From a virus: 42,595 nucleotides of DNA. Below the pieces are notes generated by a model. It was not told the DNA's origin, did no database searches, and was given only the letters and a program-made list of their open reading frames with translations. Both the position numbers and the translations under genes were made by a program. Below are positions 27,194 through 42,595 of the stretch, in pieces; positions within the stretch are counted from its first letter, which is position 1, and every line of letters starts with the position of its first letter. The stretch is from positions 1 through 42,595 of the IMG/VR virus record IMGVR_UViG_3300017963_003879. One strand, 5' to 3'.

Positions 27194-27369
27194 TGAGAGA
27201 AATCGAACAAAAATTAAATAAAGTAGAAGAAGCTATTGGAAAAGTTTTGGATTCGTGGGTGGATCTTGAGGTTCAGCCCAATGGGTTACCAAATAGGAAA
27301 TGGGTTTTACAACATATTACTTTACGCAATCTAAAAAGATTATCATTAAAATATCACAAGGAATTATAG
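27193..27369 (+). CDS. small helical hypothetical protein, 58 residues
   Basis: An ATG overlaps the NDK stop in a TAATG junction and opens a 58-codon frame ending TAG. It fills what would otherwise be a 180-base hole in a tightly packed operon. The N-terminal half (EIEQKLNKVEEAIGKVLDSW) is predicted amphipathic helix. The C-terminal half (WVLQHITLRNLKRLSLKY) is basic. I do not recognise it. Support comes from the coupling geometry and exact fit between neighbours. Confidence 0.55.
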   Translation: MREIEQKLNKVEEAIGKVLDSWVDLEVQPNGLPNRKWVLQHITLRNLKRLSLKYHKEL

Positions 27370-27375
27370 ATACGG

Positions 27376-27669
27376 GTGAAAACAGAAGAAGAGTTAAATC
27401 AGTTATATGATGACTGTTTGAATTTTTGGGGTGAAGAAGAACAACTTAAAGTGGTTCAGGAAGAATGTGCCGAGTTGATTGTAGCTATATCTCATTACCT
27501 TAGAAACAGGAAAGGGAGTCGTGATAATGTAATAGAAGAGTTAGCGGATGTAAAATTAATAACAGACCAAATGATACGTCATTTTGGTGAACATGAAGTA
27601 ATGAATGTATTTGATGCTAAGTCAGATAGGACGGCAAAAAAGTTAGAGAAATATAAGGAGAAGGATTAA
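27376..27669 (+). CDS. MazG-like nucleotide pyrophosphohydrolase
   Basis: MazG-type enzymes hydrolyse (d)NTPs or related nucleotides to monophosphates and pyrophosphate. The 97-residue size is that of a single all-alpha NTP-PPase domain. The metal-binding signature is present: QEECAELI, where the EExxE Glu residues lie, and about 25 residues later EELADVKL, the ExxD half. The start is GTG at 27376; AAGGA lies about 13 bases upstream. Its TAA shares one base with the ATG of the clamp gene. It may cleanse dNTP pools, or lower ppGpp as proposed for phage MazG homologues; the substrate cannot be told from sequence. Confidence 0.8.
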   Translation: MKTEEELNQLYDDCLNFWGEEEQLKVVQEECAELIVAISHYLRNRKGSRDNVIEELADVKLITDQMIRHFGEHEVMNVFDAKSDRTAKKLEKYKEKD

Positions 27670-28784
27670 TGGAATTTAAGATTTTAGTTGATGACATGCA
27701 ATCAGTTATTTCTCGTTTAGCTCATGTAGTGAGATTAAACGAGGAAGATGTGACGGGTATGGTGCTGATAGAAGCGTCAGATCACGTGGAATTTAAAGCC
27801 ACTGATGGTAAAACTTCTTTGGTGATAGTTAGTGAAGCTGAAGTGATTGAAAAGGGTCGAACTCTTATGAGGCTCAGAGATGTCAAGGGTTATTTGTCAA
27901 AATTTGTACCGTTAATGGACAACTATGGTACAAAAGATTTTCATTTTGTAATAGAAGAAAATAAGGGATTAATTAAAACCAAAACGCAGTTCCAATCAGG
28001 AAAACCTTCCTATAGACGACTTAAGTTTCAGACCTTTCAGGACAACTTCCCATCAGTTAAATCTTTTGATGACCCAGACTTAATTTTAAATAGCGTTATA
28101 CTAAAGAAAGGTATTAATAGAGTACTCCACTGTGTTAACGCTAAAGAAGTTAGAAGAGCTCTGACCGGAGTCAATGTAACCATTGATGCTGGTAGAATAG
28201 TTTTTGCCGGTGCTAATGGTGTTAAATTGGCGGAATTTGGTTTTAATACTGCGGCCGATATCGAGCAAAAATCATATATTTTGAGTTATGGGTTAGCTTC
28301 GATATTGAGAGCTGTATTAGAGGATGATGCTCAGGTGTTTCTGAAATTTGAAGGAAGGCATGCATATATTAAGTCAAATAATATTTATATCGTTGGTTCT
28401 TTGATTATTAACGAGAGCTATCCTGATTACAAAGCAATGTTCGAATTAGTGAACGTATTGCGTGTACCAAGGATAGATTTTTCCGATACAGTTACTACGG
28501 TCATGGACGTATTGGATCCTGAGGACAATAAAAGATTGAGTGTTAAATTAAGCGGTAACGAATTAATTTTGAAAAACGATGTTGTGGAGACCTCTCAGGA
28601 ATTCGACGATACATTTGAACATGAATTGGATGTTGACGTTAATGGTGAATATCTTGATTCAATTCTTAGAGATTTTACTGGTACTATGGTTGATATTCAT
28701 TTTACTCATGGAAATAATTATATTGTTTTTAAAGGCGAAGACGAAAATCATACAGCACTATTGTCAATAGTAAAGAGGCGATAA
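27669..28784 (+). CDS. dnaN: DNA polymerase III beta sliding clamp-like protein
   Basis: The 371-residue length matches bacterial beta clamps (about 366-380). The three-domain pattern is visible: an N-terminal domain with IEASDHVEFKATDGKTSL, a middle domain with NAKEVRRALTGVNVTI and GANGVKLAEF, and a final domain. A YPDYKAMF segment near residue 255 matches the conserved FPDY junction between domains 2 and 3. The clamp holds the polymerase on DNA. A bacterial-type clamp in a phage suggests it either recruits the host polymerase III or serves a phage C-family polymerase outside the window. It is joined to the MazG-like gene by a TAATG overlap. Confidence 0.85.
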   Translation: MEFKILVDDMQSVISRLAHVVRLNEEDVTGMVLIEASDHVEFKATDGKTSLVIVSEAEVIEKGRTLMRLRDVKGYLSKFVPLMDNYGTKDFHFVIEENKGLIKTKTQFQSGKPSYRRLKFQTFQDNFPSVKSFDDPDLILNSVILKKGINRVLHCVNAKEVRRALTGVNVTIDAGRIVFAGANGVKLAEFGFNTAADIEQKSYILSYGLASILRAVLEDDAQVFLKFEGRHAYIKSNNIYIVGSLIINESYPDYKAMFELVNVLRVPRIDFSDTVTTVMDVLDPEDNKRLSVKLSGNELILKNDVVETSQEFDDTFEHELDVDVNGEYLDSILRDFTGTMVDIHFTHGNNYIVFKGEDENHTALLSIVKRR

Positions 28785-28785
28785 T

Positions 28786-29409
28786 ATGAACGTAGATCAA
28801 ATGGATGCATTTAGTGAAGGCAAATCTGTAGAAGAAATACAAATAGAAAAAGCTATCGAGATACTATATAAAAATGAGTATAGGGTCGCTAAAACTGCGG
28901 AAGACGCAAAAGAATTAGCTATTGAAGCTGGTTATAAGGTCTCGGAACCTGTAGTAGTCAATAGTAAGGTTGTAAATTTAACTGATCTACGCAATTATTT
29001 TTATATGCGTTTATGGAATCACTATCCTAATCAACAACCTTACCATATAGAGGGTAATATTAAGAATGAGTTGCGAGCTTTTAGATTATTCGTTGAATCC
29101 CGAGAAAAAACTGGTTTGAATAGATTCAACGCGATACAAGAGTGTGTAGAAATAATAGACACAATATTTGATCATGTGTCTAAGTTTAAATTCAAAAAGC
29201 CTATAGATCTTAGAGTTATAGGTCAGGGTAAGGCTGGATGGATAACTCAAAAAGCTATACTTATTATGAACGACGAGCATCAGAAAAAACGAGAGAAAGA
29301 AATAAAAGAAATTATAGATAAATATGACGAAGAGGTGGAAGTAGATTTAAACGAAAAGGCAAATGAGTTAGATACTTTGTTAGCTAGAATGGAGGCGAAT
29401 AATGGCTAA
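28786..29409 (+). CDS. hypothetical replication-operon protein, 207 residues
   Basis: I do not recognise this gene. The product is charged and mostly helical. The N-terminus (EEIQIEKAIEILYKNEY) and C-terminus (EKEIKEIIDKYDEEVEVDL) look like helices or short coiled coils. The middle has basic strands (KPIDLRVIGQGKAGWITQKA). There are no metal motifs apart from a lone Cys. It lies between the clamp and RecA and overlaps recA by eight bases; its last codons encode the GGAGG ribosome site of recA. A role in replication or recombination is suggested only by position. Confidence 0.6.
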   Translation: MNVDQMDAFSEGKSVEEIQIEKAIEILYKNEYRVAKTAEDAKELAIEAGYKVSEPVVVNSKVVNLTDLRNYFYMRLWNHYPNQQPYHIEGNIKNELRAFRLFVESREKTGLNRFNAIQECVEIIDTIFDHVSKFKFKKPIDLRVIGQGKAGWITQKAILIMNDEHQKKREKEIKEIIDKYDEEVEVDLNEKANELDTLLARMEANNG

Positions 29410-30436
29410 GAAGACGGCAAAGACAAAAGAAAATCCGTCCGCTTTATCGATAGTAGAAAAGAATATTGAAAAGAAGTACGGAAAAGGTGTAATAAGTGTT
29501 CTGGGCGAACATGAGGATTTAGTAATTGACTCAGTATCGACTGGATGTTTATCGCTGGATGCTGCTACGGGTGTCGGCGGGTTTGCTAGAGGTAGAATTT
29601 ACGAGGTTTTTGGGCCCAACAGTAGTGGTAAGTCGACATTAGCATTGAGTGTAGTTATGCAGGGCTTATTAAGAGATATGACAGTAGTGTATATCGACGC
29701 AGAACACGCACTTGATCCAAAATTAGTAAGAAGTATGGGCTCCGTTGTGGGCGCAAAGGTTGATAATATAAAACTTGTACAAGCTTATACAGGCGATGCT
29801 AATCTTCAAATAGCTGAAGATCTTATGAAGACTGAAGAAATTGATATTATAGTAGTCGATAGTGTATCCGCTCTTTTACCGCAAGCTATGGCGGATGGAG
29901 AAATAGGTGATAATTATATTGGGCAACTAGCTCGGTTAATGAGCAAAGCTTGTAATAAATTGACACCTATAGTAAATAGGACTAATACATTGCTTATTTT
30001 TATTAATCAGACAAGAGTGGATATTGGACGATATGGGGATAATAATGTTCCCACTGGAGGAGCTTCCATACCCTTTTATGCAACGGGTAGAATAAAAGTT
30101 ATTGGCGGTGAGTCAAAAAGTTCAAGGATTATTGATGACGAAGGCTTGGTTATAGGGCATGAAAGTGAATTCACTATTATTAAGAACAAATTAGCCGCTC
30201 CATGGCGTAAAGCTAAAATAAACCTTATTTATGGATATGGTTATGATTTTGTTGCGGAAGTAGTAGACATATCTATAGATCTCGGTTTGATAGAGCAGGC
30301 GGGTGCTTGGTATGAGTTTGGAGAACAACGGGTCCAGGGTAAAAAGAACTTGGTTGATATATTCAGAGAAAACAATGACATATATAATGAATTTAGGTCT
30401 AAATGTATGATAATGTTAGGACTAGCCGATGAGTAA
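29402..30436 (+). CDS. recA: RecA-family recombinase
   Basis: RecA forms ATP-dependent filaments on single-stranded DNA and drives strand exchange for repair, recombination and recombination-dependent replication. The 344 residues are close to bacterial RecA. Walker A is G71-PNSSGKS-T79, with FGPNSSG where bacteria usually have FGPESSG. YIDAEHALDP, IIVVDSVSALLP (Walker B) and the L1/L2 region with INQTRVDIG and PTGG are all present. The N-terminal IEKKYGKGVI helix is typical. The C-terminal acidic tail is short. GGAGG lies seven bases before the ATG. It overlaps the gene before and after by eight bases each. This is bacterial-type RecA rather than T4 UvsX type. Confidence 0.95.
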   Translation: MAKKTAKTKENPSALSIVEKNIEKKYGKGVISVLGEHEDLVIDSVSTGCLSLDAATGVGGFARGRIYEVFGPNSSGKSTLALSVVMQGLLRDMTVVYIDAEHALDPKLVRSMGSVVGAKVDNIKLVQAYTGDANLQIAEDLMKTEEIDIIVVDSVSALLPQAMADGEIGDNYIGQLARLMSKACNKLTPIVNRTNTLLIFINQTRVDIGRYGDNNVPTGGASIPFYATGRIKVIGGESKSSRIIDDEGLVIGHESEFTIIKNKLAAPWRKAKINLIYGYGYDFVAEVVDISIDLGLIEQAGAWYEFGEQRVQGKKNLVDIFRENNDIYNEFRSKCMIMLGLADE

Positions 30437-30770
30437 TCTGTCTGATAAAACTTACGAGGAATTAAAAAAATGGTTTCCCCATTTTTCTATTTATAAAGAA
30501 CATTATATAAGATATAAGGGAACTCGTTTGTTCTTTGATTTTTACATAAAAGAGATGGGAGTTTTAGTGGAAGTTCAAGGTAGACAACATGATCAGTTCG
30601 TTAAGCATTTCCACACTGATAGAGAAGGATTCGTTGAGTCAAAAAGAAGAGATAACTTAAAAAAATCTTATTGTGAAAAGGCTGGGAAAGTGTTGTTGGA
30701 AGTTAGGAGTGAAAAAGAGTTGGACAGAGATAAATTTATAGAAAGAATTTGGAAAGGAATTAAAGCATGA
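30429..30770 (+). CDS. PD-(D/E)XK (VSR-like) endonuclease
   Basis: This compact 113-residue protein has the VSR/DUF559-like restriction endonuclease fold signature. F-D37-FYI is followed by a strand V-E48-V-Q50-G, then GRQH with His54, and a C-terminal helix-strand pair (KKSYCEKAGKVLLEV). Lys of the usual E-x-K is replaced by Gln, as in some VSR-like nucleases. Such proteins nick or cut DNA at mismatches or branched structures. Direct overlap with recA (eight bases) and with the next gene (four bases) suggests a repair or recombination role, perhaps junction or flap processing. Substrate is unknown. Confidence 0.7.
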   Translation: MSNLSDKTYEELKKWFPHFSIYKEHYIRYKGTRLFFDFYIKEMGVLVEVQGRQHDQFVKHFHTDREGFVESKRRDNLKKSYCEKAGKVLLEVRSEKELDRDKFIERIWKGIKA

Positions 30771-30988
30771 AACTAGAAGAGGCTACTCATTTTAGCTGTG
30801 ATGGATGTGGTAAGATAAAATTAACTAAGTATGCAAATAAAGCTAAGGTAGCGTATAGCATACATAACTCAGATACTCAGAAAGGATTTTACTATAGGCC
30901 TTTCTGGGTAATGTTGTGTACCGAATGTTTTGAGGGTGGTGTAGAGAAAGAGGAAAGCAAAGATGACAGAGATAATAATTCCGAATAA
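30767..30988 (+). CDS. small zinc-ribbon protein, 73 residues
   Basis: CDGC near the N-terminus and CTEC about 40 residues later form a four-Cys zinc ribbon, with an aromatic strand (FYYRPFWVML) before the second knuckle. The C-terminus is highly charged ([11 protein letters not shown]). AAGGA precedes the ATG, which overlaps the previous stop in an ATGA junction. The next gene starts within its last 26 bases. It is probably a small DNA- or protein-binding factor; no specific family is recognised. Confidence 0.65.
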   Translation: MKLEEATHFSCDGCGKIKLTKYANKAKVAYSIHNSDTQKGFYYRPFWVMLCTECFEGGVEKEESKDDRDNNSE

Positions 30989-31229
30989 AAAAGATCCACA
31001 CGATCCTGATACAGAGAAGGATTGTCCAGATTTTGTTGCCATGAAAGATGGAACAATTCACGGTGAAAAAAGATACTGCGATTTGTCTTTTGCATGTAAA
31101 CAGATAGGTATGTTATCACATTGGGTTGAGTTGGAAGACAAAAATGGTAACATTATTGCAAGAGATTATCTTTGCACCGGGAAGTGTCCTGTGTGGGAGG
31201 AACGAAGTGAAGATACAGAAGCAGAATAA
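30963..31229 (+). CDS. hypothetical protein with Cys residues, 88 residues
   Basis: The product has [13 protein letters not shown] and CTGKCPVW, five Cys in all, which could bind a metal. The N-terminus is rich in Lys, Asp and Pro. No enzyme motif is seen. It overlaps the preceding gene by 26 bases, and its last codons overlap the GTG start of the release-factor-like gene, so translation is likely coupled. It is unknown in function. Confidence 0.6.
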
Positions 31230-31569
31230 AGAACCATTATTAACGCTGACTAAAAAAGATTTTAGGATAGACACATTCAGGTCTGGTGGTAAGGGTGGTC
31301 AGAACCAGAATAAGAGAGATACAGGAGTGAGGATAACTCATATTGAAACTGGTATATCTGCTGAAAGTAGGGAAGAAAGAAGTCAAGCTCAAAATAAAAA
31401 AATTGCTTTTAAAAGATTGTGTGATAATCCTAAATTTAAAAGTTGGTTGAAAATAGAATCTATGTATGCGAAAGAGATAAAACAAAAAGTAGATGAGTCT
31501 ATGAATTCAGAAAATTTAAAAATAGAAATATTTGAAGAGGGAGAATGGCATGAAAGTAAAAGTAGGTGA
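31207..31569 (+). CDS. peptide chain release factor-like (GGQ) protein
   Basis: The product has the peptidyl-tRNA hydrolase domain of class I release factors: SGGKG30-G31-Q32[11 protein letters not shown], then [21 protein letters not shown]. It lacks the codon-recognition domain, so at 120 residues it resembles ArfB/PrfH-type rescue factors more than RF1 or RF2. The GGQ Gln hydrolyses the ester bond of peptidyl-tRNA in the ribosome. The start is set at GTG 31207 because GGAGG (31197-31201) is well spaced. An upstream TTG at 31126 would create an 81-base overlap and 27 residues unlike the family. The C-terminal tail ([19 protein letters not shown] ... EEGEW) is less basic than that of ArfB. 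It may rescue ribosomes stalled on broken mRNA during infection. Confidence 0.8.
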
Positions 31570-31741
31570 TAAAGTTTATGATAGTGCCGAAGAACCTATA
31601 ATGGTAATTTTGACTGATGGCGATAAGAAAAATATTGCTAACATGAGTCCAGAAGCAACCAAGTATTGTAGTTACCCCGGCGAAGAAAAATGGACTAAAG
31701 ATGATTATAAAGCAATAAAAGAGTGGATGAGAGATGCATAG
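31550..31741 (+). CDS. small hypothetical protein, 63 residues
   Basis: The start is set at ATG 31550, with GAGGGAG (31537-31543) six bases upstream, rather than at an in-frame TTG at 31532. It begins [12 protein letters not shown], then [18 protein letters not shown] and KYCSYP, ending in an amphipathic helix ([11 protein letters not shown]). The N-terminal half looks like a small SH3-like or beta-barrel fold (VGDKVYD). I recall similar short proteins in many phages, without known function. It overlaps its neighbours on both sides by 20 and eight bases. Confidence 0.65.
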
Positions 31742-32207
31742 CATAAACGATTATCTAAATAAAAGATCCGAAGATCTGATGGTGTATAAGATGCCAAAGA
31801 ACGAATATTTAATGAACGAAATATTCGCATTTGATCCGAGGAACTTAGAAGCAACACCTTCAGTTAAGATAAGTGAATATACCATAGGACTATCTCAGTT
31901 CTTGATTTATTTCTCGTCTCAAATAAATGCAACAAAAGTCAAATTGATACAAAAGAATAGAGTTATAGATATTGCAGTATCCAACTCGGATATAAAAGGT
32001 GGTACTAAAGCCGAGAAAAGACAAAAAGTTATTGATTCAAATCCTAATCTACAACAAATAGATATGGATATCCAAGCATTGGAGAGTGAAGTGCGGATGA
32101 CTGAGGGGTTAGAAAAATATTACGTCGAGCTAATCAATAGTTTTAAGAGGGAGTTAACGCGTCGTGAGCACGAACAGAAATTTGCAAGGGATGAACGGAG
32201 ATTATAA
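31734..32207 (+). CDS. helical protein, possible UvsY-like recombination mediator
   Basis: This 157-residue, highly charged helical protein has a central helix (LSQFLIYFSSQINATKVKLIQ), a KGGTKAEKRQKV loop and a long C-terminal coiled coil (DMDIQALESEVRMTEGLEKY, then SFKRELTRREHEQKF). Size and order resemble T4 UvsY, which loads the recombinase onto SSB-coated DNA: an aromatic helix near residue 50, a basic loop, then a helix ending in basic and Glu residues. The likeness is architectural and from memory, not a proven homology. Position between recA and the dnaB-type helicase fits a mediator. It might also be a structural or scaffolding helper. The ribosome site is weak and the start overlaps the preceding gene by eight bases. 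Confidence 0.5.
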   Translation: MHSINDYLNKRSEDLMVYKMPKNEYLMNEIFAFDPRNLEATPSVKISEYTIGLSQFLIYFSSQINATKVKLIQKNRVIDIAVSNSDIKGGTKAEKRQKVIDSNPNLQQIDMDIQALESEVRMTEGLEKYYVELINSFKRELTRREHEQKFARDERRL

Positions 32208-33641
32208 ATGAGCGAATCATCTAAAGCGATATTTAGGCAATCATCTTATGAGCGAGCTTTATTGTTCTATTGCTGCCAATCGGTTGACAACTATTATACG
32301 ATAGCCTCTAATGTCAGTAGTCAAGATTTTTTGTTATCTGATCATTCTATGTTATGGATGATTTTGACATCCCTAATAAAAAGAGGTGCGCCCAGAATTG
32401 ATGCTGAACTCGTTATAAGTGAAGCACAAAGTAATGGTATATTACCTCAAGTTGGGGGGTATGAATATATTAGTTCTATAATGAACATGGATATACCAGA
32501 AGATAATATTGAGTATTATATAGATAAAGTATTAAATGCAAGTACCAAGCATCAGTTATATGTGGCACTTAGTAAAAATATGGAAAATCTGGAAGAGAAT
32601 GCAAGTAACGAGGATGTTAGTTCTGCGGACGTATTGGGAGCAGCGGCTAATGATATAATGACGTTATCCATGCAATCAAAAGCAGTGAAAGAAGCTACTA
32701 ATTTTGCAGAAGGATTTGATGAGTTTATAGAAGATAAAATGCAGAACCCTGTGAAATATAATGGTATTAGTACAGGATTTCCTATATTAGATAAGCGCAT
32801 AGATGGTTTAGTTAATGGGTCTTTGACGGTATTTTGTGCAAGGCCTGGTGAAGGTAAAAGTACGTTCTTGTTAAATATAGGTAAGCATATAGCATACGTG
32901 TTGCAAAAACCCGTGTTATATGTTGATACCGAAATGACTTTTGATCAGGTTAGACCTCGTCTTATATCTATGATGTCGGGAGTGTTAGAACGGCGTATAA
33001 AGCGTGGTGGGTATAATGACCAAGAAATATACAATATAAAACGTGCTGGCGAATTAATAAAGAAGGGTAAGTACTTTCATGAGTATATGCCTGGATATAC
33101 CATGGATAAGTTAGTAGCGATATATAAGAAATATAAATATGTGGAAGATATAGGATTAGCTATTTTTGATTATATAAAGTCGCCACCAGGCGCAGATTTT
33201 AATATAAAAAAAGAACACCAATTATTAGGTGATGTTTCTACCACCCTCCATGATTTAGCGGGCGAATTAAATATACCATTTATATGCGCTAGCCAGTTAA
33301 ATAGAGATATGGATGTAGCGGATAGTGATAGGATATTAAGATACGTGGATAATCTTATGTTTTTTCAACCAAAAGAGAAGGAAGATTTAGACCAGGTAAG
33401 ACCGTTTGAGAAAGATTATGGATACCACAAGTTAGTTATTAAGAAAGCCCGATTTGGTGGTACTACCTCTAAAGAGGGTATTGGATATGATTTTACGAAG
33501 AAAATATTATTAATAACCGAAGCAAGCAAGCAATTGATAGATTATGAAAGTAAGGAATATAAAGAAAAAGAGGAATTAATGTATGACGATGGTTCCACAG
33601 AATCCATCAGCACGGCGCCCGATCAGAGAGAAAATTTCTAA
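32208..33641 (+). CDS. dnaB: DnaB-like replicative helicase
   Basis: This is a hexameric 5'-3' helicase that unwinds DNA at the phage fork. Residues about 8-110 form the DnaB N-terminal helical domain (ERALLFYCCQS ... VGGYEYISSI). A linker helix leads to the RecA-like ATPase: the STGFPILDKRIDGL lead, Walker A A211-RPGEGKS-T219, EMTFDQVRPRL, LAIFDYIK (Walker B region), and CASQLNRDMD with the sensor Gln. The C-terminus (ITEASKQLIDYES) is typical. The 477 residues agree with bacterial DnaB (about 470). GGAG lies seven bases before the ATG. The primase gene starts 59 bases before this one ends, in another frame. Confidence 0.9.
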   Translation: MSESSKAIFRQSSYERALLFYCCQSVDNYYTIASNVSSQDFLLSDHSMLWMILTSLIKRGAPRIDAELVISEAQSNGILPQVGGYEYISSIMNMDIPEDNIEYYIDKVLNASTKHQLYVALSKNMENLEENASNEDVSSADVLGAAANDIMTLSMQSKAVKEATNFAEGFDEFIEDKMQNPVKYNGISTGFPILDKRIDGLVNGSLTVFCARPGEGKSTFLLNIGKHIAYVLQKPVLYVDTEMTFDQVRPRLISMMSGVLERRIKRGGYNDQEIYNIKRAGELIKKGKYFHEYMPGYTMDKLVAIYKKYKYVEDIGLAIFDYIKSPPGADFNIKKEHQLLGDVSTTLHDLAGELNIPFICASQLNRDMDVADSDRILRYVDNLMFFQPKEKEDLDQVRPFEKDYGYHKLVIKKARFGGTTSKEGIGYDFTKKILLITEASKQLIDYESKEYKEKEELMYDDGSTESISTAPDQRENF

Positions 33642-34644
33642 GGAAGAATTACGTGCCAAACTAAATAGACTGAAGGAAGCTATTGATGCTGATAAACTTT
33701 TAGGCATGTTAGGATTCGATATTTCTAAGAGTACTTCTACTGAGGTGAGAGCACCCTGCAAAGTACATGGTGGGGACAATAAAACATCATTTAGAATGAA
33801 TAAGCAGACCAAAAACTGGATATGCTTTTCTCATGGATGCCATGAGGAAATAGGATATGATGTTATAAGCTTAGTTATGCATCTTACAAGTAAAAGTTTT
33901 GCTGATACCGTCAGGTACTTAGAGAGTATAACCGGCATAGATATTCATAATGAATCAGAATATTTAAGATATAGAATTGAAAGAGAAAAGCGTGATTTTA
34001 TAGAACGGATGAAAGATAACAGGCAAGTACCTTCCACTTTGACTACGGAGGAATATTTAAAAAGTTTTGCTAAATTTAGGTCTGATTATTTTACGCGGGA
34101 AGAAAATGGAGGGTTTCCATTTGAGTTATTAGACGAGTTTGAAATTGGCGGGGGGTACGTAGATAAATACGGATTTCAGAGAGACGTTATACCTATAAGA
34201 GATGTAAATGGAATATTGAGAGCTTATAGTTGTAGAGACATAACTAATAAAGCGGACGAACATTTTAAATATTTATTGACAAAGGGATTTGATAAAGACA
34301 AAGTACTTTATAATTTACACAGAGCCAAAGATGTATCGAAAAAAATTATAGTAGTTGAGGGTTTTAAGTCCGTGTGGAAATTACATATGGCTGGGTATAA
34401 CGCGGTAGCATGTATGGGAAGTAGAATAACGCCTGGACAACAGAGTTTATTATATAGACATGCGTTTGAAGTAACTTTACTATTTGACGGTGATGAAGCT
34501 GGTGCTAAGGGGACTATTAAAGCTATAGAATCTATGCGAGGAAAGATAAAACTTATACCATTGTTTTTTCCATATGAAGATAGAGATCCAGGTGATCTGA
34601 GTGTTGATGAACTGAGAAAATTATTAGGAGAAAGAAATGACTAA
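33583..34644 (+). CDS. dnaG: DnaG-like primase
   Basis: This enzyme makes RNA primers for phage replication. Residues about 55-115 form a CHC2-type zinc finger (C59-x2-H62 ... C81-FSH-G-C86, then DVISLVMHL). The Toprim domain spans about 255-345: IIVVEGFKSVWKLHMAGY, MGSRITPGQ, LLFDGDEAGAKGT and the DPGDLS metal/nucleotide motif. The 353 residues are shorter than cellular DnaG (about 580), because the C-terminal helicase-binding domain is absent. GAGGAA precedes the ATG. The 59-base overlap with the helicase gene suggests linked expression. The final eight bases overlap the next gene. Confidence 0.9.
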   Translation: MTMVPQNPSARRPIREKISKEELRAKLNRLKEAIDADKLLGMLGFDISKSTSTEVRAPCKVHGGDNKTSFRMNKQTKNWICFSHGCHEEIGYDVISLVMHLTSKSFADTVRYLESITGIDIHNESEYLRYRIEREKRDFIERMKDNRQVPSTLTTEEYLKSFAKFRSDYFTREENGGFPFELLDEFEIGGGYVDKYGFQRDVIPIRDVNGILRAYSCRDITNKADEHFKYLLTKGFDKDKVLYNLHRAKDVSKKIIVVEGFKSVWKLHMAGYNAVACMGSRITPGQQSLLYRHAFEVTLLFDGDEAGAKGTIKAIESMRGKIKLIPLFFPYEDRDPGDLSVDELRKLLGERND

Positions 34645-35029
34645 CAAAAAAAATAGTAAGCAAACTAGTAAGAGGAAAGAAATTAATGCCGTAGGTACAC
34701 CTACAGCGATATTGTTGCCAGCGAGAAATTATAGATTTAAAGTTTTTTCTGAAAAACATATTTTAACAGTACCCGCTGAAGGTAAATATTGTGATTTAGA
34801 TAACGAATTATTTACAGAAAAAGACGGTGAGTTTGATTTTTTGCAGTACTCTGAGGAAGATCAATCGTTTACATTGTTTATACCTGCACTATCTAAGGTA
34901 TTGTTTGCTACACATCAATACCCAGATATGAAAGATAGTCAAGCTTTTACGCCTATTGCGATAACTGTAAAAGGAAATGAAGTGCAAATTGTAGGAAATC
35001 TGATAGAAATGGTGCAGGAGAAAAAATAA
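34637..35029 (+). CDS. hypothetical protein, 130 residues
   Basis: I do not recognise this gene. The N-terminus is a basic tail (NKKNSKQTSKRKE). The rest is beta-rich, with alternating strands (NYRFKVFSEKHILTV, SFTLFIPALSKVLFA, IAITVKGNEVQIVGNLIEMV). It has one Cys and no metal motif. AGGAG precedes the ATG, which overlaps the primase stop by eight bases. A small DNA-binding or SSB-like beta-barrel is possible from the location after primase, but no diagnostic residues were seen. Confidence 0.6.
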   Translation: MTNKKNSKQTSKRKEINAVGTPTAILLPARNYRFKVFSEKHILTVPAEGKYCDLDNELFTEKDGEFDFLQYSEEDQSFTLFIPALSKVLFATHQYPDMKDSQAFTPIAITVKGNEVQIVGNLIEMVQEKK

Positions 35030-35030
35030 C

Positions 35031-35255
35031 ATGGTAGAAGTAGTAGAAATAAATGGAGAAAAGAAGTTCAAAATAGGCACAGTAAAGATTACAGTTAACG
35101 GTGAGCCTGTGGGAGAATTAGATCATTTCCAATATGATGAGCTTCGTATAATAGAACAAAATGCAGTGCAATCTATATATGGTGGGGATATAAACGTACT
35201 AGAAAAAATAACTGATGTAAATACTACTATAGATATTACAATGAAGGAGAATTAA
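35031..35255 (+). CDS. hypothetical protein, 74 residues
   Basis: This is a small acidic protein with a strand-turn-strand opening (VEVVEINGEKKFKIGTVKITVNG), a helix (YDELRIIEQNAVQ) and a closing strand (NTTIDITMK). No Cys or catalytic motif is seen. AGGAG lies about ten bases before the ATG, and the next gene begins one base after its stop. Its function is unknown; its operon position after the primase and before the resolvase is the only clue. Confidence 0.55.
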   Translation: MVEVVEINGEKKFKIGTVKITVNGEPVGELDHFQYDELRIIEQNAVQSIYGGDINVLEKITDVNTTIDITMKEN

Positions 35256-35256
35256 T

Positions 35257-35640
35257 ATGAATTGCCCAGAATGTAATAGTGATGATGTAATAAATATGAG
35301 CAAAGATCCTATACCGTGTACTGATTGTGGATCTACAATAGTTGTGGAATATTTTATGTGTACATCATGTGGTTATAACTTTAGAACTACTAACAATAAA
35401 TTTCTTGATGGATGTCATCCAGTAGAAATGGAGCGGATTATAAAAGATATTTTGGATGATTTTGTTGATGATGTATTTGAGAATAGTTGTGATGGATGCG
35501 GTGAATGTGGTCCAACTTCTATGATGGACACTATATGTAATTGTGTTAGATGTGGTAAAGTAATGGTATTTAGTCCCGATCAAACCGAATATACATGCCC
35601 ATACTGTGGATTTGAGTGGGATATAATAGAAAGTAGGTAA
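35257..35640 (+). CDS. multi-zinc-ribbon protein, 127 residues
   Basis: Six CxxC-type pairs are present: CPEC, CTDC, CTSC, CDGCGEC, CNCVRC and CPYC. This gives two or three zinc ribbons around a central acidic helix (EMERIIKDILDDFVDDVF). Ribbons of this kind bind nucleic acid or proteins and occur in transcription and replication factors. AAGGAG precedes the ATG. The RuvC-like gene starts two bases after its stop. It could be a phage transcription regulator, but no family-specific residues support that. Confidence 0.65.
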   Translation: MNCPECNSDDVINMSKDPIPCTDCGSTIVVEYFMCTSCGYNFRTTNNKFLDGCHPVEMERIIKDILDDFVDDVFENSCDGCGECGPTSMMDTICNCVRCGKVMVFSPDQTEYTCPYCGFEWDIIESR

Positions 35641-35642
35641 AA

Positions 35643-36122
35643 ATGAGTAAATTATTGTCTTTTGACGTATCATCAAAATGTACTGGATATTCTTACTTTG
35701 TTGATGGTATTTTGGAGGAATGTGGAGTTATACAGCTATCTGATAAATTAAATCACTATGAAAAGTTATTTGTATTTAAAAAGAACGTTCAGGTATTGAT
35801 GCATCTTTATATGCCAGACAACGTGGTAATAGAAGAAACCTATCTGAAGAACGTTAGGACTTTGAAGATACTGACCAGTTTTGTTACAGTGGTGGAACTT
35901 GTGTGTTATGATAACCACATTGAGCCGGAATTTGCTCGTACTGTCACGGTTAGAAGTTATTTTGGATTGAAAAACAAAGAGGAAGTTTTTGACTATGTCA
36001 AAGATAAATATAAAGTTAAACTAAGGAATTATGATTTTGAGAGCGGAAATGATATAACTGATTCGATATTGCAGGCGCTGTATTGGATAGACAAGGAGAC
36101 AGAAAATGTCGAAACAAAATAA
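35643..36122 (+). CDS. RuvC-like Holliday junction resolvase
   Basis: The 159-residue protein has the RNase H-type resolvase core. LLSF-D8-VSSKCTGYS is the first strand with the catalytic Asp. NVVIEE near residues 60-65 supplies the Glu. GN-D137-IT-D140-S on the last helix supplies the final acidic pair. Such enzymes cut four-way junctions left by recombination, and in phages also debranch DNA before packaging. It overlaps the RecB-like nuclease gene by 17 bases. The family is clear from the acidic residue layout, although identity to cellular RuvC is low. Confidence 0.85.
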   Translation: MSKLLSFDVSSKCTGYSYFVDGILEECGVIQLSDKLNHYEKLFVFKKNVQVLMHLYMPDNVVIEETYLKNVRTLKILTSFVTVVELVCYDNHIEPEFARTVTVRSYFGLKNKEEVFDYVKDKYKVKLRNYDFESGNDITDSILQALYWIDKETENVETK

Positions 36123-37251
36123 TATGATAATAATGTCGGCTACACGGATGAACATGTATCTTTCATGTAAATGGCGCTATTGGTGTAATTACGTATTGAA
36201 GTTACCGAGAAAGCCAAATGTATCATTTAAACTTGGAATAGCGGTGCATGAGGCGCTAGCGACTGCCGGTGATATTTGGATGCACAAAGAACGATTTGAT
36301 AAGGGGGATATAGAACGTATAAAGGATATGTATAATAAGGTAGCAGCTAAAGAAGGGATTGCTGATACGAACATATATCATGAAGGTTTACAGATGGTAT
36401 TAATGCGGGTTAAAAATTTTGTCAACGGCACCATTCTCACCGTTGAAGATAGGTTTAGAGTAGCTACTGATCAAGGAGTTATGCTAACAGGTGCTATGGA
36501 TAAAGTAGAAGAGCTACGTGATGACACAATCCTAGTAACGGATTATAAGACATCCAAGTATCAGGAAACTTCATCAGAACTTAAATCGGATATCCAGTTG
36601 TCCGTTTATGATGCAGTAGCTCATATAAAATACCCAGATTATAAGAGAATCATTCTATCTTTGGATTATCTAAGAGCGGATCCAGTTTATACTTATAGAA
36701 CCGATTCTGAAAGAGAAAATTTCTTGAGTTATATGTTGGCGATATATAAAGAAATGATGTCAATGCAAGAAAAAGATGCGGTACCGAGTTTGAATGATAT
36801 GTGTAATTGGTGTGATTTTACTGATCATTGCACCACATATAATGAAGCATTATCTAGTAAAACATTTATTAAAAAAAAGCCGGAGGAATACAACGACGAA
36901 GAACTCGTAAAAGATTATCTGGACATAAAAAGTAAAAAGAGAATTTTGGACAATCGTGAAAGAGCGTTAAAAACTTATATATTAGAGAAAATAAAATCCG
37001 AGGAGCAAGACCTAATAGGTAATGGTAAGAGGGTGTTTATAAGACAAAACAGTTCAACTGTTTATGACCCAAAAACCGTTTATGAAAATGTTCCATTAGA
37101 AGTTTTCTTGGATATTGTGAATGTTTCAAAGAAAGAGTTGGATGAGTACTTGATCAAGAACCCTGTTCGTAAAGAACAGATTATAGCAACATCGAGAAAA
37201 AATTATACATCGCCTTTTTTATCTTATAAGAATATAAAACAAGGAAGTTAA
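36106..37251 (+). CDS. RecB/Cas4-like PD-(D/E)XK nuclease with Fe-S cluster motif
   Basis: The N-terminus has SATRMNMYLS-C21-KWRYWCNY, then LGIAVHEAL (motif I His), GAM-D132-KVEEL, and VT-D146-Y-K148-TSK, the catalytic D-x-K. D-QLSVYD is the following QxxxY motif. C233-x2-C236-x5-C242, together with C21, reproduces the one-plus-three Cys pattern of the 4Fe-4S nucleases AddB and Cas4. The last 130 residues are helical and charged. These nucleases resect DNA ends. GGAG lies six bases before the ATG, overlapping the resolvase gene. With recA and ruvC-like genes it makes a recombination set. CRISPR genes are absent, so a Cas4 adaptation role is not supported here. Confidence 0.85.
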   Translation: MSKQNNMIIMSATRMNMYLSCKWRYWCNYVLKLPRKPNVSFKLGIAVHEALATAGDIWMHKERFDKGDIERIKDMYNKVAAKEGIADTNIYHEGLQMVLMRVKNFVNGTILTVEDRFRVATDQGVMLTGAMDKVEELRDDTILVTDYKTSKYQETSSELKSDIQLSVYDAVAHIKYPDYKRIILSLDYLRADPVYTYRTDSERENFLSYMLAIYKEMMSMQEKDAVPSLNDMCNWCDFTDHCTTYNEALSSKTFIKKKPEEYNDEELVKDYLDIKSKKRILDNRERALKTYILEKIKSEEQDLIGNGKRVFIRQNSSTVYDPKTVYENVPLEVFLDIVNVSKKELDEYLIKNPVRKEQIIATSRKNYTSPFLSYKNIKQGS

Positions 37252-37252
37252 T

Positions 37253-38110
37253 GTGTCCAAGAAATTGACATATGAATTTGTGAAAGGGAAGTTCGAAAAA
37301 GAAGGGTATGAATTATTGAGTAACACTTATACAAATAATAAAACTAAATTAAAATACAGATGTCCTAAAGGGCACGAGCATCAAATATCTTACGGCGAAT
37401 GGAATCACTTAGGTAACAGGTGTCCATATTGTTCCGGTAAAGCTAGAAAAACCATTGAGTTTATTAAATTGGAATTTAATAAAGAAGGATATACTCTTGT
37501 AACCACTATATATAAAAATGCTTTTAGAAAATTAAAATATATTTGTCCAAAAGGACATGAGCATAGCATAAACTGGGTTAACTGGAGTAATGGGTATAGA
37601 TGTCCTTATTGTGCGGGGCAGATAAAGCCTGAGATAGAATTTATTAGGAATGAGTTTAAAAAAGAAGGGTATGAACTTTTAAGTAAGGAATATTTAGATA
37701 ATAAACAAAAGCTAAAATGTATTTGTCCGCTAGGTCATAATTATAGTATTTCTTGGAATAAATGGTTGATGGGCAGGCGTTGTTGGGTTTGTTCGTATAT
37801 AAAAAGATCTGGATCAAATAGCTCGAATTGGAGAGGTGGGATTTCATGTGAACCTTACTGTCAAATATGGCTTGATAAAGAGTATAAAGAATCTATTAAA
37901 GAGCGCGATAATTATAAGTGTCAAAATCCAGATTGTTGGGGAACTAGTGAAAGACTAGTAATTCACCACATCGATTATGTTAAGAAACACTGTGATCCAT
38001 GGAATTTAATAACTGTATGTAATTCTTGTAATACAAGAGCCAATAAAAATAGAAAATATTGGCAAAGATTATATGAAAAATGTATGAAGGAGGTATATAA
38101 TGATGAGTAA
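37253..38110 (+). CDS. HNH homing endonuclease, paralogue of the 2323 gene
   Basis: The 285-residue protein has the same plan as the one at 2323. It has three tandem F--EGYELL ... CPKGH ... CPYCSG-type zinc-ribbon units over residues 1-185, the SSNWRGGISCEPYC linker, then an HNH nuclease (CQNPDCWG, HHIDY, NLITVCNSCN). The repeats probably read DNA. The start is GTG at 37253, two bases after the RecB-like stop, because the frame opens there with the family N-terminus KKLTYEFVK; AAGGAAG lies about seven bases upstream. The 3' end encodes the AAGGAGG of the next gene, as at the other copy. It is a mobile gene inserted between the recombination nuclease and glycosyltransferase genes. Confidence 0.85.
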   Translation: MSKKLTYEFVKGKFEKEGYELLSNTYTNNKTKLKYRCPKGHEHQISYGEWNHLGNRCPYCSGKARKTIEFIKLEFNKEGYTLVTTIYKNAFRKLKYICPKGHEHSINWVNWSNGYRCPYCAGQIKPEIEFIRNEFKKEGYELLSKEYLDNKQKLKCICPLGHNYSISWNKWLMGRRCWVCSYIKRSGSNSSNWRGGISCEPYCQIWLDKEYKESIKERDNYKCQNPDCWGTSERLVIHHIDYVKKHCDPWNLITVCNSCNTRANKNRKYWQRLYEKCMKEVYNDE

Positions 38111-39476
38111 GAAGAGAAAGAAAACTAAGAGTGCTGCAAAACCAGCGACTATATCCGCTGTGAAACCTAAAACTGTTGCAACGAATAAAAAGATTAAAGT
38201 TCTAGCTTATTGTGATGCGCCAACGTGTGCGACCGGATTTGGAACCGTGAGCAGAAATATTTTTGAAGGGTTATATAAAACAGGTAGATATGAGATAGAT
38301 ATTCTTGGGATAAACTATTGGGGGGACCCTACGTCGGTTCCGTACAGAATATGGCCTACGGGAACTAATCCCCAAAAAGACCCTTATGGAAGGCAAAAAG
38401 TTTTAAATATGATTCCAAGGATGGAGTTCGATATATTGTTTCTATTACAAGATAGTTTCATTCTTGAGTTTGTACCTAAATTAATAAACCACTTAAGGAC
38501 TAACACTGATAAAAAGTTCAAATCTATTTTGTATTATCCAGTAGATTCCATAATTAAACAAAGTTGGGCAGAAAATATCGCTCCCGCAGATTATTTAGTT
38601 GCTTACTCTGAATTTGGTAAACAAGAGACGCTGAAACGTATTGATAGGGATGATATTATGATAATTCCTCATGGCGCTAATACCCGAGAATTTTTTCCTA
38701 TACCAGGCGATGGTATAAATCAGTTTAAATCACAGTATTTTGGTCCCTATAAAGACCATTTTATTATTACGAATGTAAATAGAAATCAGCAGAGGAAAGA
38801 TATCCCCAGAACTATAAGGGCATTTAAAGAGTTCAGAAAAATAGTACCAGAATCACTTCTATATTTGCATATGGCCGTAAAAGATCAGGGGTGGGATCTT
38901 GGAGAAGTTTGTAAGTATATGGGTTTAGATATTACTAAGGATGTTATTTTCCCCAAAAATTTTGGTCCGAACCAAGGATATCCAAGAGAAATACTGAATA
39001 TGATTTACAACTGTAGTGACGTCGTTGTAAGTACTACTTTGGGTGAAGGTTTTGGACTGGCGTGGATGGAAGCTATGGCTGCTAAAAGACCTATTATTAT
39101 GCCAGCCAATACTATGTTGCCAGAATTTATTAACGAGGAAACTGGCTGGTTAGTAAAGAGTGGTAACAACCCCAGCTTATGGACAACTATACAGTTCGAT
39201 AATGAAGTTCAAAGACCTCTCACAGACGTAGAAGATATGGTAAAAGTTCTAAAAGAAGTACACGATAATCCGGAAGAAGCTAAAAGGCGTGCAGAAAATG
39301 CTTATAAATGGATTAATAAAGAGATGGATTGGTTGAGAAGTATAGCGCCTATGTGGGTAGAACTTTTTGATAAAGCTTGGGAAGATATGCAGGAATCAGA
39401 CAAAGATATAGATAATATTTTAGATCAGTTGGGAGGCAAATCTAAGAATACCATTATTGAAGCCGAAGAGCTGTAA
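38100..39476 (+). CDS. GT4-type glycosyltransferase (458 residues)
   Basis: This is a retaining, nucleotide-sugar dependent glycosyltransferase with a GT-B fold. Residues 1-35 are a Lys/Ala/Pro-rich basic tail. The N-terminal Rossmann half starts at IKVLAYCDAPTCATGFG (an acceptor-side glycine loop). IIPHGANTREFFP and NRNQQRKDIPRTIRAF match the GT4 middle segment. GEGFGLAWMEAMAAKRPII near residue 315 is the E-x7-E donor-binding signature. It has no membrane helix, so it acts in the cytoplasm. GGAGG lies seven bases before the first ATG (a second ATG follows immediately), inside the end of the HNH gene. Acceptor and sugar are unknown. Confidence 0.85.
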   Translation: MMSKKRKKTKSAAKPATISAVKPKTVATNKKIKVLAYCDAPTCATGFGTVSRNIFEGLYKTGRYEIDILGINYWGDPTSVPYRIWPTGTNPQKDPYGRQKVLNMIPRMEFDILFLLQDSFILEFVPKLINHLRTNTDKKFKSILYYPVDSIIKQSWAENIAPADYLVAYSEFGKQETLKRIDRDDIMIIPHGANTREFFPIPGDGINQFKSQYFGPYKDHFIITNVNRNQQRKDIPRTIRAFKEFRKIVPESLLYLHMAVKDQGWDLGEVCKYMGLDITKDVIFPKNFGPNQGYPREILNMIYNCSDVVVSTTLGEGFGLAWMEAMAAKRPIIMPANTMLPEFINEETGWLVKSGNNPSLWTTIQFDNEVQRPLTDVEDMVKVLKEVHDNPEEAKRRAENAYKWINKEMDWLRSIAPMWVELFDKAWEDMQESDKDIDNILDQLGGKSKNTIIEAEEL

Positions 39477-39486
39477 GGAGATTAAA

Positions 39487-40605
39487 ATGAATATAAAAGG
39501 TATAAAATATATAGGACCAATTTTCGACGCATCTGGATATGCACAGGCGTGCCGTGGATACATATTAGCTATGCATAGACTTGGTATACCATTAACACTG
39601 AGACCGATATCATTTGAAAAAAATTTACCAGATTTAGGTAAAGATGGTAAAATTTTAAAGGGATTAGTTAATAAGAAAATTGATTATAATGTAGTGGTGC
39701 TTCATTCAACCCCAGAGCATTGGCCTAATCTTAAAGAGTTAGGTAAAGTAAATGTTGGATACTGTGTGTGGGAAACTGATAAATTACACTCGGACTGGAT
39801 AGGATATATCAATGATAATGTGGGTGCCTGTATGGTATCTTGTGAATGGAGTGTGGAAGTATACAAAGACTCTGGAATAACAGTGCCAGTGTTTAACGTA
39901 CCTCATGGAATAGATATTGCGGAGTATAAGGATATTGATCCTTATGAAGTGCGGGGGGTAGATCCCAATGCATACAAATTTTATGCAATTTTTCAGTTTA
40001 TTGAAAGAAAAAATCCACTAGCTATAGTAAAATCGTACTGGCATGCTTTTCAGAACAATGAAAATGTGGCATTGATATTAAAAACATATAGATTTGGATT
40101 TACTGAACAAGAGAAAAATGTAATAAAAGAAACCATTAAAAGACTTAAACAAGTGATGCCAATGGATAATTATCCATCCATATATTTAGTAGGAGATATG
40201 TTGAGCCGCGAAGAGGTTTTAGGCTTACATAAATTCGGTGATTGCTTGATTAGTTTAGATCGTGGTGAAGGATTTGGGCTAACCCCGTTTGAGGCTGGTG
40301 CTTGCGGTAATCCTATAATTGTGACGGGTCTTGGCGGGGTAAATGAATACGCTAAGCCTGAACATAGTTATATTTGTAATTACACTATGAGCCCAGTTTT
40401 TGGAATGCCTCAATCACCATGGTATAGGGGAGATCAAATGTGGGCAGAACCAGACCTTGGTAATGCAGTTAAGTTGATGAGACATGTTTATAATAATCAA
40501 GTAGAAGCTTCTAATAAGGGGCGTATGCTACAAAGTTATATTGCTAATAACCTTAGCTGGGATGGAATGGGTATGAGAATGGTGGAGGTTATAAAATCGT
40601 TATGA
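39487..40605 (+). CDS. GT4-type glycosyltransferase (372 residues)
   Basis: The start is set at ATG 39487, with AAGGAG six bases upstream. An in-frame TTG at 39457 would add ten residues and overlap the previous gene. YIGPIFDASGYAQACRGY is the N-terminal glycine loop. VPHGIDIAEY and AIFQFIERKNPLAIVKSYW are middle-segment motifs. DRGEGFGLTPFEAGACGNPII near residue 258 is the E-x7-E donor site. It is related in plan to the 458-residue enzyme just upstream but clearly diverged. It overlaps the dehydrogenase gene by four bases (ATGA). The enzyme probably adds a sugar in the same glycan. Confidence 0.85.
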   Translation: MNIKGIKYIGPIFDASGYAQACRGYILAMHRLGIPLTLRPISFEKNLPDLGKDGKILKGLVNKKIDYNVVVLHSTPEHWPNLKELGKVNVGYCVWETDKLHSDWIGYINDNVGACMVSCEWSVEVYKDSGITVPVFNVPHGIDIAEYKDIDPYEVRGVDPNAYKFYAIFQFIERKNPLAIVKSYWHAFQNNENVALILKTYRFGFTEQEKNVIKETIKRLKQVMPMDNYPSIYLVGDMLSREEVLGLHKFGDCLISLDRGEGFGLTPFEAGACGNPIIVTGLGGVNEYAKPEHSYICNYTMSPVFGMPQSPWYRGDQMWAEPDLGNAVKLMRHVYNNQVEASNKGRMLQSYIANNLSWDGMGMRMVEVIKSL

Positions 40606-41600
40606 AGACTAATATAGCGTTAATAGGATTAGGATACTGGGGACCCAATCTACTGAGAAATTTTAATTCATTGGGAGTATTAAAATCAGTATTTGATTTG
40701 GACAGCGACAAGATAGAGAAGTTTGAAGAATCTTATAATAACGTTTACTTTGGCACTGATTGGGAGCCGCATGTAAAGGACAAGAGATTCGGAATAGATG
40801 CTGTGGCTATAGCTACTCCTCCAGAAACACACTGTGACATAGCAATTAGAGCTCTTAATATGGGGAAGCATGTATTTATAGAAAAACCTATGACGGCTAC
40901 TGTTGAGGAGGCTGAAAAAATAATAAAAGTTGCTAAGAAAAAAAATAAAATAGTTATGGTGGGTCATACTTTTTTGTATACTCCTGAGGTTAGAAAGATA
41001 AAAGAACTCATAGATGCTGGTGAGTTGGGAGATATTCAATATATACATGCACTTAGACTGAATCTTGGCAAATTTCAAAAGTCAAATGTTGTTATGGATT
41101 TAGCTCCCCACGACCTATCCATATTTAACTATCTATTAAATAGTAGAGTGAGAAAAACCCATACTAAAGGGTATAGTTTCATAGATAAAAAAGTAGTGGA
41201 AGTAGCGTTTTTAACCTTGGAATACGATAACGGATCGGTGTGTCATTTGCATCTAAGTTGGTTAGATCCGCTTAAGACTAGAACTACTACTATAGTTGGC
41301 ACTAAAAAAATGTTAATATACGATATGCTTGCGGAAGAGAAAATAAAAGTTTATGATAAAGGTGTTGATGTAGACAATATAAGTAGTTATGGTGATTACT
41401 TATTGACGTATAGACACGGAGATATTTGGTCACCTCATACTAAGGTATGGGAGCCTCTTGGTTTGGAGTGCAAGCATTTTATCGAGTGTATAGAAACTAA
41501 TAAAACACCATTGACTGATGGTGAAAATGGTTTAGAAGTGGTTAAAGCTCTTTCAGGGGCTATGAAATCTTTGAAGACAGGAGTAGAGGTATGGCTTTAG
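40602..41600 (+). CDS. Gfo/Idh/MocA family sugar dehydrogenase (WlbA/WbpB-like)
   Basis: This is an NAD(P)-dependent oxidoreductase acting on a (nucleotide) sugar. The N-terminus has ALIGLGYWGPNLLRNF, a Rossmann GxGxxG. AIATPPETHCDIA, FI-E94-K95-P96 (catalytic Lys) and MVGHTFLYTPEV follow, then APHD with His170. The 332 residues are typical. WlbA/WbpB oxidise the C3 hydroxyl of UDP-GlcNAc uronate. The neighbouring acetyltransferase makes that route the best guess, but a dTDP- or other UDP-sugar substrate is possible. The ATG overlaps the upstream stop (ATGA) and the end overlaps the acetyltransferase by ten bases, so all three are coupled. Confidence 0.85.
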   Translation: MKTNIALIGLGYWGPNLLRNFNSLGVLKSVFDLDSDKIEKFEESYNNVYFGTDWEPHVKDKRFGIDAVAIATPPETHCDIAIRALNMGKHVFIEKPMTATVEEAEKIIKVAKKKNKIVMVGHTFLYTPEVRKIKELIDAGELGDIQYIHALRLNLGKFQKSNVVMDLAPHDLSIFNYLLNSRVRKTHTKGYSFIDKKVVEVAFLTLEYDNGSVCHLHLSWLDPLKTRTTTIVGTKKMLIYDMLAEEKIKVYDKGVDVDNISSYGDYLLTYRHGDIWSPHTKVWEPLGLECKHFIECIETNKTPLTDGENGLEVVKALSGAMKSLKTGVEVWL

Positions 41601-42031
41601 ATGATACTGTGGTAGTGGGTAAAGGCACTAAGATATGGCACCCAGAAACCAGTAATATATATGGCGAGGGGTACATAGGGGAAAATTGTAATATTGGTAC
41701 GTTTGTGGAGATACGTGCTCCAAAAATTGGAGACACTTGTAAGATACAAGCATTTGTATTTATCCCAGAGGGAGTTGTAATTGGAAGTAATGTTTTTGTA
41801 GGACCACATGTTTGTTTTACTAATGATAAATATCCTACTGTCAGAGAGTTCGGCAAAGGTGATTGGTTAGAGACTCATGTAAAGGACGGGGCTAATATAG
41901 GAGCTAACGCTACTATAGTATGTGGAGTAACTATTGGCGAAGGTGCTACTATAGGGTCTGGTGCCGTTGTAACAAAGGACGTTGCTCCAGGAATTACAGT
42001 AGTAGGGAATCCAGCGAGGGAATTAAAATGA
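41591..42031 (+). CDS. hexapeptide-repeat N-acetyltransferase (WlbB/WbpD-like)
   Basis: The 146-residue protein is a left-handed beta-helix built from hexapeptide turns ([LIV]-G-x-x-x-x): IGENCNIG, IGDTCKIQ, VIGSNVFVG, IGANATIVCGVTIG, IGSGAVVTKDV, and the closing VGNPAREL. FVGPHVCFTNDKYP is the loop with Asn/Asp typical of sugar N-acetyltransferases. The family uses acetyl-CoA to acetylate an amino sugar, as trimers. The neighbouring dehydrogenase suggests the WlbA-WlbC-WlbB route, in which an aminotransferase is needed between the two steps. That gene is not in the window. The start overlaps the dehydrogenase by ten bases; the stop overlaps the next ATG. Confidence 0.85.
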   Translation: MALDDTVVVGKGTKIWHPETSNIYGEGYIGENCNIGTFVEIRAPKIGDTCKIQAFVFIPEGVVIGSNVFVGPHVCFTNDKYPTVREFGKGDWLETHVKDGANIGANATIVCGVTIGEGATIGSGAVVTKDVAPGITVVGNPARELK

Positions 42032-42595
42032 AAAATATAATACTTTTTGCAGTTTGGAATAGACCAGAAATGTTACAAATAGTGACGGAAAGTTTGGTAG
42101 AAGCTTATGATTATCATCCGTTACCCGATATGGAATTTGTTTTTGCGGTTGAATACCCAAATGATCCTAAGGTTTTGGAACTGGTTAAAAATTTCCCGTT
42201 GCCAGTTAGGGACGTGGTTGTGCGTAAAGAAAGATATGCACTTAGTAAAAATATTTTAGAGGGTATGAAAACTGCCATGGCTCATAGTAACGATTATATC
42301 ATGTTTCAAGCCGATGATATAGTTGTGCATAAGACTTTTTTCAAATTTTATGATACTTTAATTAATACTATAAATTTGGACGAGATTTCTACTTGTACTA
42401 CAGCTATATACAAAGAAGGCGGGGATGTAAATCTGGTATATAAGGGTCATTTTTATGATGCTGCTGGTGCTTTTATAACTCGTAATTTTTATGAGAATTA
42501 TATAAAGCACTGTTCTGTGCCCCAATTCTACAATAATAAGCCAGGGTTTGTTACAGCGCTTGATGCTAAATATAAACAACATTGGAAGCCTGGTA
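42028..42595 (+). CDS. GT2-like glycosyltransferase, 3' end missing
   Basis: An ATG overlapping the acetyltransferase stop (ATGA) opens a frame that runs off the window; 189 residues are visible. The start IILFAVWNRPEMLQIVTESL is the GT-A N-terminal strand and nucleotide loop. LSKNILEGMKTA is the typical helix before the central strand. YIMFQADDIVVHKTFF carries an ADD motif at the DxD metal-binding position of GT2 enzymes. DAAGAFITRNFYENY follows, as in the acceptor loop of GT2. It is presumably the third glycosyltransferase of the glycan module. The fold is supported by order and DD motif only, since the C-terminus is not seen. Confidence 0.65.
   Translation, partial: MKNIILFAVWNRPEMLQIVTESLVEAYDYHPLPDMEFVFAVEYPNDPKVLELVKNFPLPVRDVVVRKERYALSKNILEGMKTAMAHSNDYIMFQADDIVVHKTFFKFYDTLINTINLDEISTCTTAIYKEGGDVNLVYKGHFYDAAGAFITRNFYENYIKHCSVPQFYNNKPGFVTALDAKYKQHWKPG

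Follow-up and report, generated by a model that had tools for sequence, protein, structure and literature searches.

Phage genes predicted to form a 3-amino-sugar pathway coupled to a glycosyltransferase island in an uncultured virus

The GnnA/GnnB pathway to UDP-GlcNAc3N, known from the lipid A of Acidithiobacillus ferrooxidans, combines a 3-dehydrogenase of the Gfo/Idh/MocA family with a DegT aminotransferase, and the WlbA/WlbB and WbpB/WbpE/WbpD systems lead to UDP-GlcNAc3NAcA. Among viruses, the chloroviruses glycosylate their virions by means of virus-encoded soluble glycosyltransferases. Enzymes of this kind also act in mycobacteriophage virion glycosylation, as far as the account of Freeman et al. 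2023 given in PMC12619734 extends, and in YerA41 the modified thymidine carries about 1 kDa of material that is thought to be an oligosaccharide and that blocks conventional polymerases (PMC9023294). The DNA analysed here, referred to as the window, comprises the full 42,595 bp of an IMG/VR virus record which, like all virus records used, is probably a fragment. We consider it reasonably probable that, during infection, this phage synthesises a nucleotide-linked 3-amino sugar and feeds it into its own glycan assembly, for which a phage structural protein is the likeliest acceptor.

In silico analysis of the window established that five intact open reading frames without internal stops lie on the + strand at 38100-42595 in the order GT4a, GT4b, DH1, LbH and GT2x (Table 1), in agreement with the five coupled genes of the original prediction. 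Their coupling is tight, as the starts of DH1 and GT2x fall within the stop codon of the preceding gene (ATGA overlaps) and LbH begins within DH1, and GT2x is cut by the window end. For GT4b, the ATG at 39487 is probably the start rather than the TTG at 39457 listed for the open reading frame, since it matches the homologue start MEIRGIKY. The HNH/CapR endonuclease gene preceding GT4a is mobile and outside the sugar pathway. Elsewhere in the window (25779-27193), the short thymidylate-synthase-like protein has an RSWD motif in which C replaces D, and its gene is followed by one for a nucleoside diphosphate kinase.

Table 1. Position and family assignment of the window genes considered in the text
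Feature	Position	Strand	Supporting match
Thymidylate-synthase-like protein, 218 aa	25779..26435	+	PF00303 3e-8
PD-(D/E)XK exonuclease, conserved upstream neighbour of GT4a	36106..37251	+	PF12705 6e-21
HNH/CapR homing-type endonuclease, directly before GT4a	37253..38110	+	CapR 1.7e-9; HNH phrogs
GT4a, GT-B family 4 glycosyltransferase, 458 aa	38100..39476	+	PF00534 8e-13, phrog_2170 5e-54
GT4b, second GT4, 372 aa from ATG 39487	39487..40605	+	PF00534 3e-6, phrog_2170 6e-21
DH1, Gfo/Idh/MocA dehydrogenase, GnnA-like, probable UDP-GlcNAc 3-dehydrogenase	40602..41600	+	PF01408 2e-25
LbH, left-handed beta-helix N-acetyltransferase, WlbB/WxcM/QdtC type	41591..42031	+	Hexapep 1.5e-20
GT2x, GT-A-fold glycosyltransferase, truncated by window end	42028..42595	+	Model and Foldseek

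A scan for DH1 relatives yielded IMGVR_UViG_3300017971_003292 (27,851 bp), the first 14,812 bases of which are 100% identical to window positions 27784-42595, so that its other 13,039 bases lie directly downstream of the window, in this phage or one nearly identical to it (adding 27,783 to a contig coordinate gives the window coordinate). The module predicted at 38100-42595 was found in place, albeit larger than claimed, as it runs for 13 kb more beyond the window. Past the window end, GT2x is followed by a mini UDP-glucose-dehydrogenase-like protein, two glycosyltransferase-like genes flanking an FMN reductase, an ATP-grasp enzyme, a PIG-L deacetylase, a GT4-like gene, a sulfotransferase-like gene, and two methyltransferases flanking a glycosyltransferase. 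They are followed by a PP-loop protein (recognised by eye), the second Gfo/Idh/MocA dehydrogenase of the phage, the DegT aminotransferase and one more sulfotransferase-like gene; at least seven genes of this island are glycosyltransferase-like. In one related phage, G008, the gene immediately past the sugar island (L074, 3028-5508) encodes a DUF2341 protein that weakly matches H-type lectin.

Both predicted GT4 enzymes are supported by Glycos_transf_1 and phrog_2170 matches, and the pair represents predicted core genes of a large phage lineage, present in no fewer than 100 related viral contigs. The viral relatives of GT4a number 119, for which 80 loci were fetched and 79 tabulated; GT4b adjoins GT4a in most of the latter, and the pair is preceded by RecA, DnaB, primase, RuvC and PDDEXK genes. 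As DH1 and DegT occur in 17 and 9, respectively, of the 79 loci as fetched, it looks as if the GT4 pair is constant in this arrangement while sugar synthesis varies. The best GT4a relative among isolated phages is that of Tetrasphaera phage TJE1 (39%), which lies near nucleotidyltransferase and epimerase genes in a genome with no annotated thymidylate synthase, and no isolated phage with the whole module was found. The fifth enzyme had been called GT2-like, for which Pfam gave just 0.0075, below cut-off; a glycosyltransferase of GT-A fold is predicted, as a model based on homologues from four phages (mean pLDDT 69.5) matched GnT-I, EXTL2 and TarP with a Foldseek probability of 1.00 against the PDB. 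The complete GT2x, of 302 aa, is present in the overlapping contig (L002, 11427-12335) and its QADD motif is invariant in four phages.

Unusually long GT4a and GT4b frames in G008 (L013, 1119-3668 and 4322-7915) were attributed to intein insertions, and glycosyltransferase fusions were rejected. The inteins carry LAGLIDADG domains and interrupt the catalytic motif (GEGWGL/C...HN/S and GEGFGL/C...HN/C); inteins are also present in L014, L016 and L017, further GT4b insertion sites are VFGMP and FQW/ERK, and frames above 600 aa were seen for 4 of 79 GT4a and 10 of 65 GT4b genes. On the - strand of phage G005 (L085-L087, contig 79535-103780), one open reading frame extends over 8,081 codons.

The GT4 pair lies among replication rather than structural genes, a position that would also fit decoration of DNA, and for this reason, together with the thymidylate-synthase-like genes, DNA is a possible acceptor. 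According to this alternative, which we hold to be unlikely, the thymidylate-synthase-like enzyme would yield a hydroxymethylated pyrimidine to which the GT4 pair adds a phage-made amino-sugar glycan as a defence against host restriction. Consistent with such a role, the pair is placed between the RecA-to-PDDEXK genes and, in G008, those for a clamp loader, DNA polymerase A and ribonucleotide reductase which come after the island, while YerA41 and, as cited by other papers, the work of Pyle et al. 2024 (doi 10.1016/j.celrep.2024.114631) provide precedents. Moreover, in 23 of the 69 loci with both glycosyltransferases a ThyA-like (11) or ThyX-like (12) gene is situated between them; however, the exchange of the two types at one place suits plain thymidylate synthesis, and 43 of the 69 have neither gene within the flank. 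Furthermore, more than 100 contigs of this lineage could be assembled from ordinary metagenomes, whereas YerA41 DNA is unusable by conventional polymerases (PMC9023294). A route through a DNA methylase and a TET-type enzyme was rejected, as neither the TET/JBP (PF12851) nor the C5-methylase family (PF00145) was present in 12 records.

The reading in which the phage supplies its own glycan assembly with an amino sugar depends on three enzymes. DH1 has the two-domain Gfo/Idh/MocA fold and, as predicted, the E94-K95-P96 motif (GFO_IDH_MocA 2e-25, plus C-terminal domains), with the lysine kept by all 40 homologues and H170 by every one that is aligned, these being the EKP lysine and catalytic histidine of GnnA-type enzymes. 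Its original assignment as WlbA was rejected, as a profile of 33 DH1 homologues scored 133 bits against GnnA (7bvj), a value exceeded in the PDB only by that of an uncharacterised protein, and about 74 bits against the WlbA structures 3q2i/3q2k. Of the solved structures of characterised proteins, GnnA is accordingly one of the nearest to DH1, and the DH1 model (pLDDT 93.5) superimposes on it with TM 0.85/0.90. The substrate of DH1 is not fixed by these comparisons, owing to an identity to GnnA of just 22% and a score of 182 bits against the archaeal equivalog NF040723, short of its cut-off of 450; the enzyme is probably a GnnA-like UDP-GlcNAc 3-dehydrogenase, as predicted from relatives this distant. 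When phage records were searched with the DH1 protein, the matches were distant, at about 30% at most. Relatives at 46-68% identity occur in further phages, mostly collinear with the window, and ten DH1s of collinear phages form one clade (support 100/100).

The downstream aminotransferase that the original prediction called for was located 12-13 kb beyond the window module, at 26286-27401 of the extending contig (PF01041, E=2e-114), and the absence of such a gene, which together with a lack of the sugar on virion, DNA and infected cells was to refute the prediction, is thereby rejected. Its nearest named structures are QdtB, WbpE and related aminotransferases, with ArnB clearly more distant, which places DegT, as judged by its relatives, closest to the C3-aminotransferases; its catalytic-type Lys187 is invariant. 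LbH was likewise found to be an acetyltransferase of the WlbB/WbpD type, matching 7s43 (1.6e-30), the WxcM-like 4mzu (2e-26) and the WlbB structure 3mqg (3e-25), and it carries an FTNDKYP motif. Counting against a joint pathway, the LbH-type proteins near DH1 in phages G009 and G010 lack FTNDK, and in the phage studied DegT is 12 kb from DH1 and has a different, WbpB-like dehydrogenase as its neighbour. DH1, LbH-type and DegT genes co-occur in G008, G009 and G010, DegT also being present in G001, and of 29 bacterial or archaeal DH1 loci, 18 have DegT in the flanks that were fetched, thereby suggesting that phages and bacteria alike use the set as a unit. Given this co-occurrence and the likeness of DH1 to GnnA, of DegT to QdtB and WbpE, and of LbH to the structures above, a phage-encoded 3-amino-sugar pathway is well supported as a prediction, and the original call of an amino-sugar and glycosyltransfer module was borne out.

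As regards the product, UDP-GlcNAc3NAc, the simplest, appears likelier than the diacetamido uronic sugar originally proposed, which lacks support as no convincing 6-dehydrogenase and no 2-epimerase was seen. A WlbA/WlbB-type route to UDP-GlcNAc3NAcA, using the second dehydrogenase and the mini UDP-glucose-dehydrogenase-like protein, strikes us as quite improbable. The second dehydrogenase, about 12 kb downstream and adjoining DegT, is the predicted WbpB/WlbA-type enzyme of the phage, its best match among solved structures being WbpB (7e-16), with a further match to T. thermophilus wbpB, and its relation to DH1 being distant; however, it is short (238 aa as compared to 312-318), and at full score it recurs in no other contig, in contrast to DH1. 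Similarly, the mini protein of 257 aa, the sole 6-dehydrogenase-like candidate, matches PF00984 and retains GGHC but has neither an N-terminal Pfam match nor the C-terminal domain, and neither UDPG_MGDP_dh_C nor Epimerase_2 was detected in six records, all fragments. Such mini proteins (240-265 aa, GGHC, without the C-terminal domain) constitute a phage family, represented here at L002 12335-13105 and by homologues in L009, L010, L012, L013, L025 and L026.

The proximity of DegT to DH1 is typical of gene clusters for surface polysaccharides, and phage serotype conversion is well known. Remodelling of the host surface polysaccharide, leading to superinfection exclusion, is nevertheless a doubtful explanation, despite that precedent and the DegT neighbours of bacterial DH1 homologues, as it is disfavoured by the absence from six records of the initiating phosphoglycosyltransferase (PF02397) and flippase (PF01943) families, by the few and weak hydrophobic segments of the island proteins in a simple hydropathy scan, and by the location of the islands within replication blocks.

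We therefore return to a glycan assembled by the phage from its own amino sugar, with a virion protein chosen as acceptor by elimination and precedent. In the reaction order that we infer, DH1 would oxidise C3 of host UDP-GlcNAc using NAD, DegT would aminate the resulting 3-keto sugar, and LbH would acetylate the amino sugar with acetyl-CoA to give UDP-GlcNAc3NAc. GT4a and GT4b would then start a glycan that GT2x, together with four or more other transferases, may extend and that the sulfotransferase-like, methyltransferase and PIG-L deacetylase gene products may trim, the acceptor most likely being a phage structural protein. No obvious mucin-like Ser/Thr-rich target protein was seen. A weakly supported ranking of acceptors gives the virion a little less than an even chance, with DNA unlikely, the host envelope somewhat more so and any other acceptor improbable. 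The conservation of the GT4 pair in at least 100 viral contigs and the inteins in its catalytic motif point to a core function. It is a speculative and rather unlikely extension of this that the pair is the core two-enzyme machine of a large uncultured lineage, placing a phage-made, sulfated and methylated amino-sugar oligosaccharide on phage DNA or a single virion protein, with side-chain genes that vary by phage like an antigenic cassette. Possession of the full dehydrogenase-aminotransferase-acetyltransferase set would free the phage from dependence on its host for this sugar.

As in YerA41 (PMC9023294), several phage glycosyltransferases and a probable oligosaccharide are involved, but the present lineage was sequenced by ordinary metagenomics and is known here from sequence alone. 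The soluble glycosyltransferases are shared with the mycobacteriophages, within the account cited above, and with the chloroviruses; as compared to these, the phage described here would also make the amino-sugar donor. The WlbA/WlbB and WbpB/WbpE/WbpD systems resemble the island in their types of acetyltransferase and aminotransferase and in the WbpB-like dehydrogenase downstream, whereas DH1 is not WlbA-like, the 6-dehydrogenase is doubtful and a 2-epimerase was not found. The GnnA/GnnB pathway provides, in GnnA, one of the nearest relatives of DH1 by both sequence and fold, and a DegT partner; the present system differs in being phage-encoded, in the 22% identity of its dehydrogenase and in the addition of an LbH acetyltransferase and a glycosyltransferase island.
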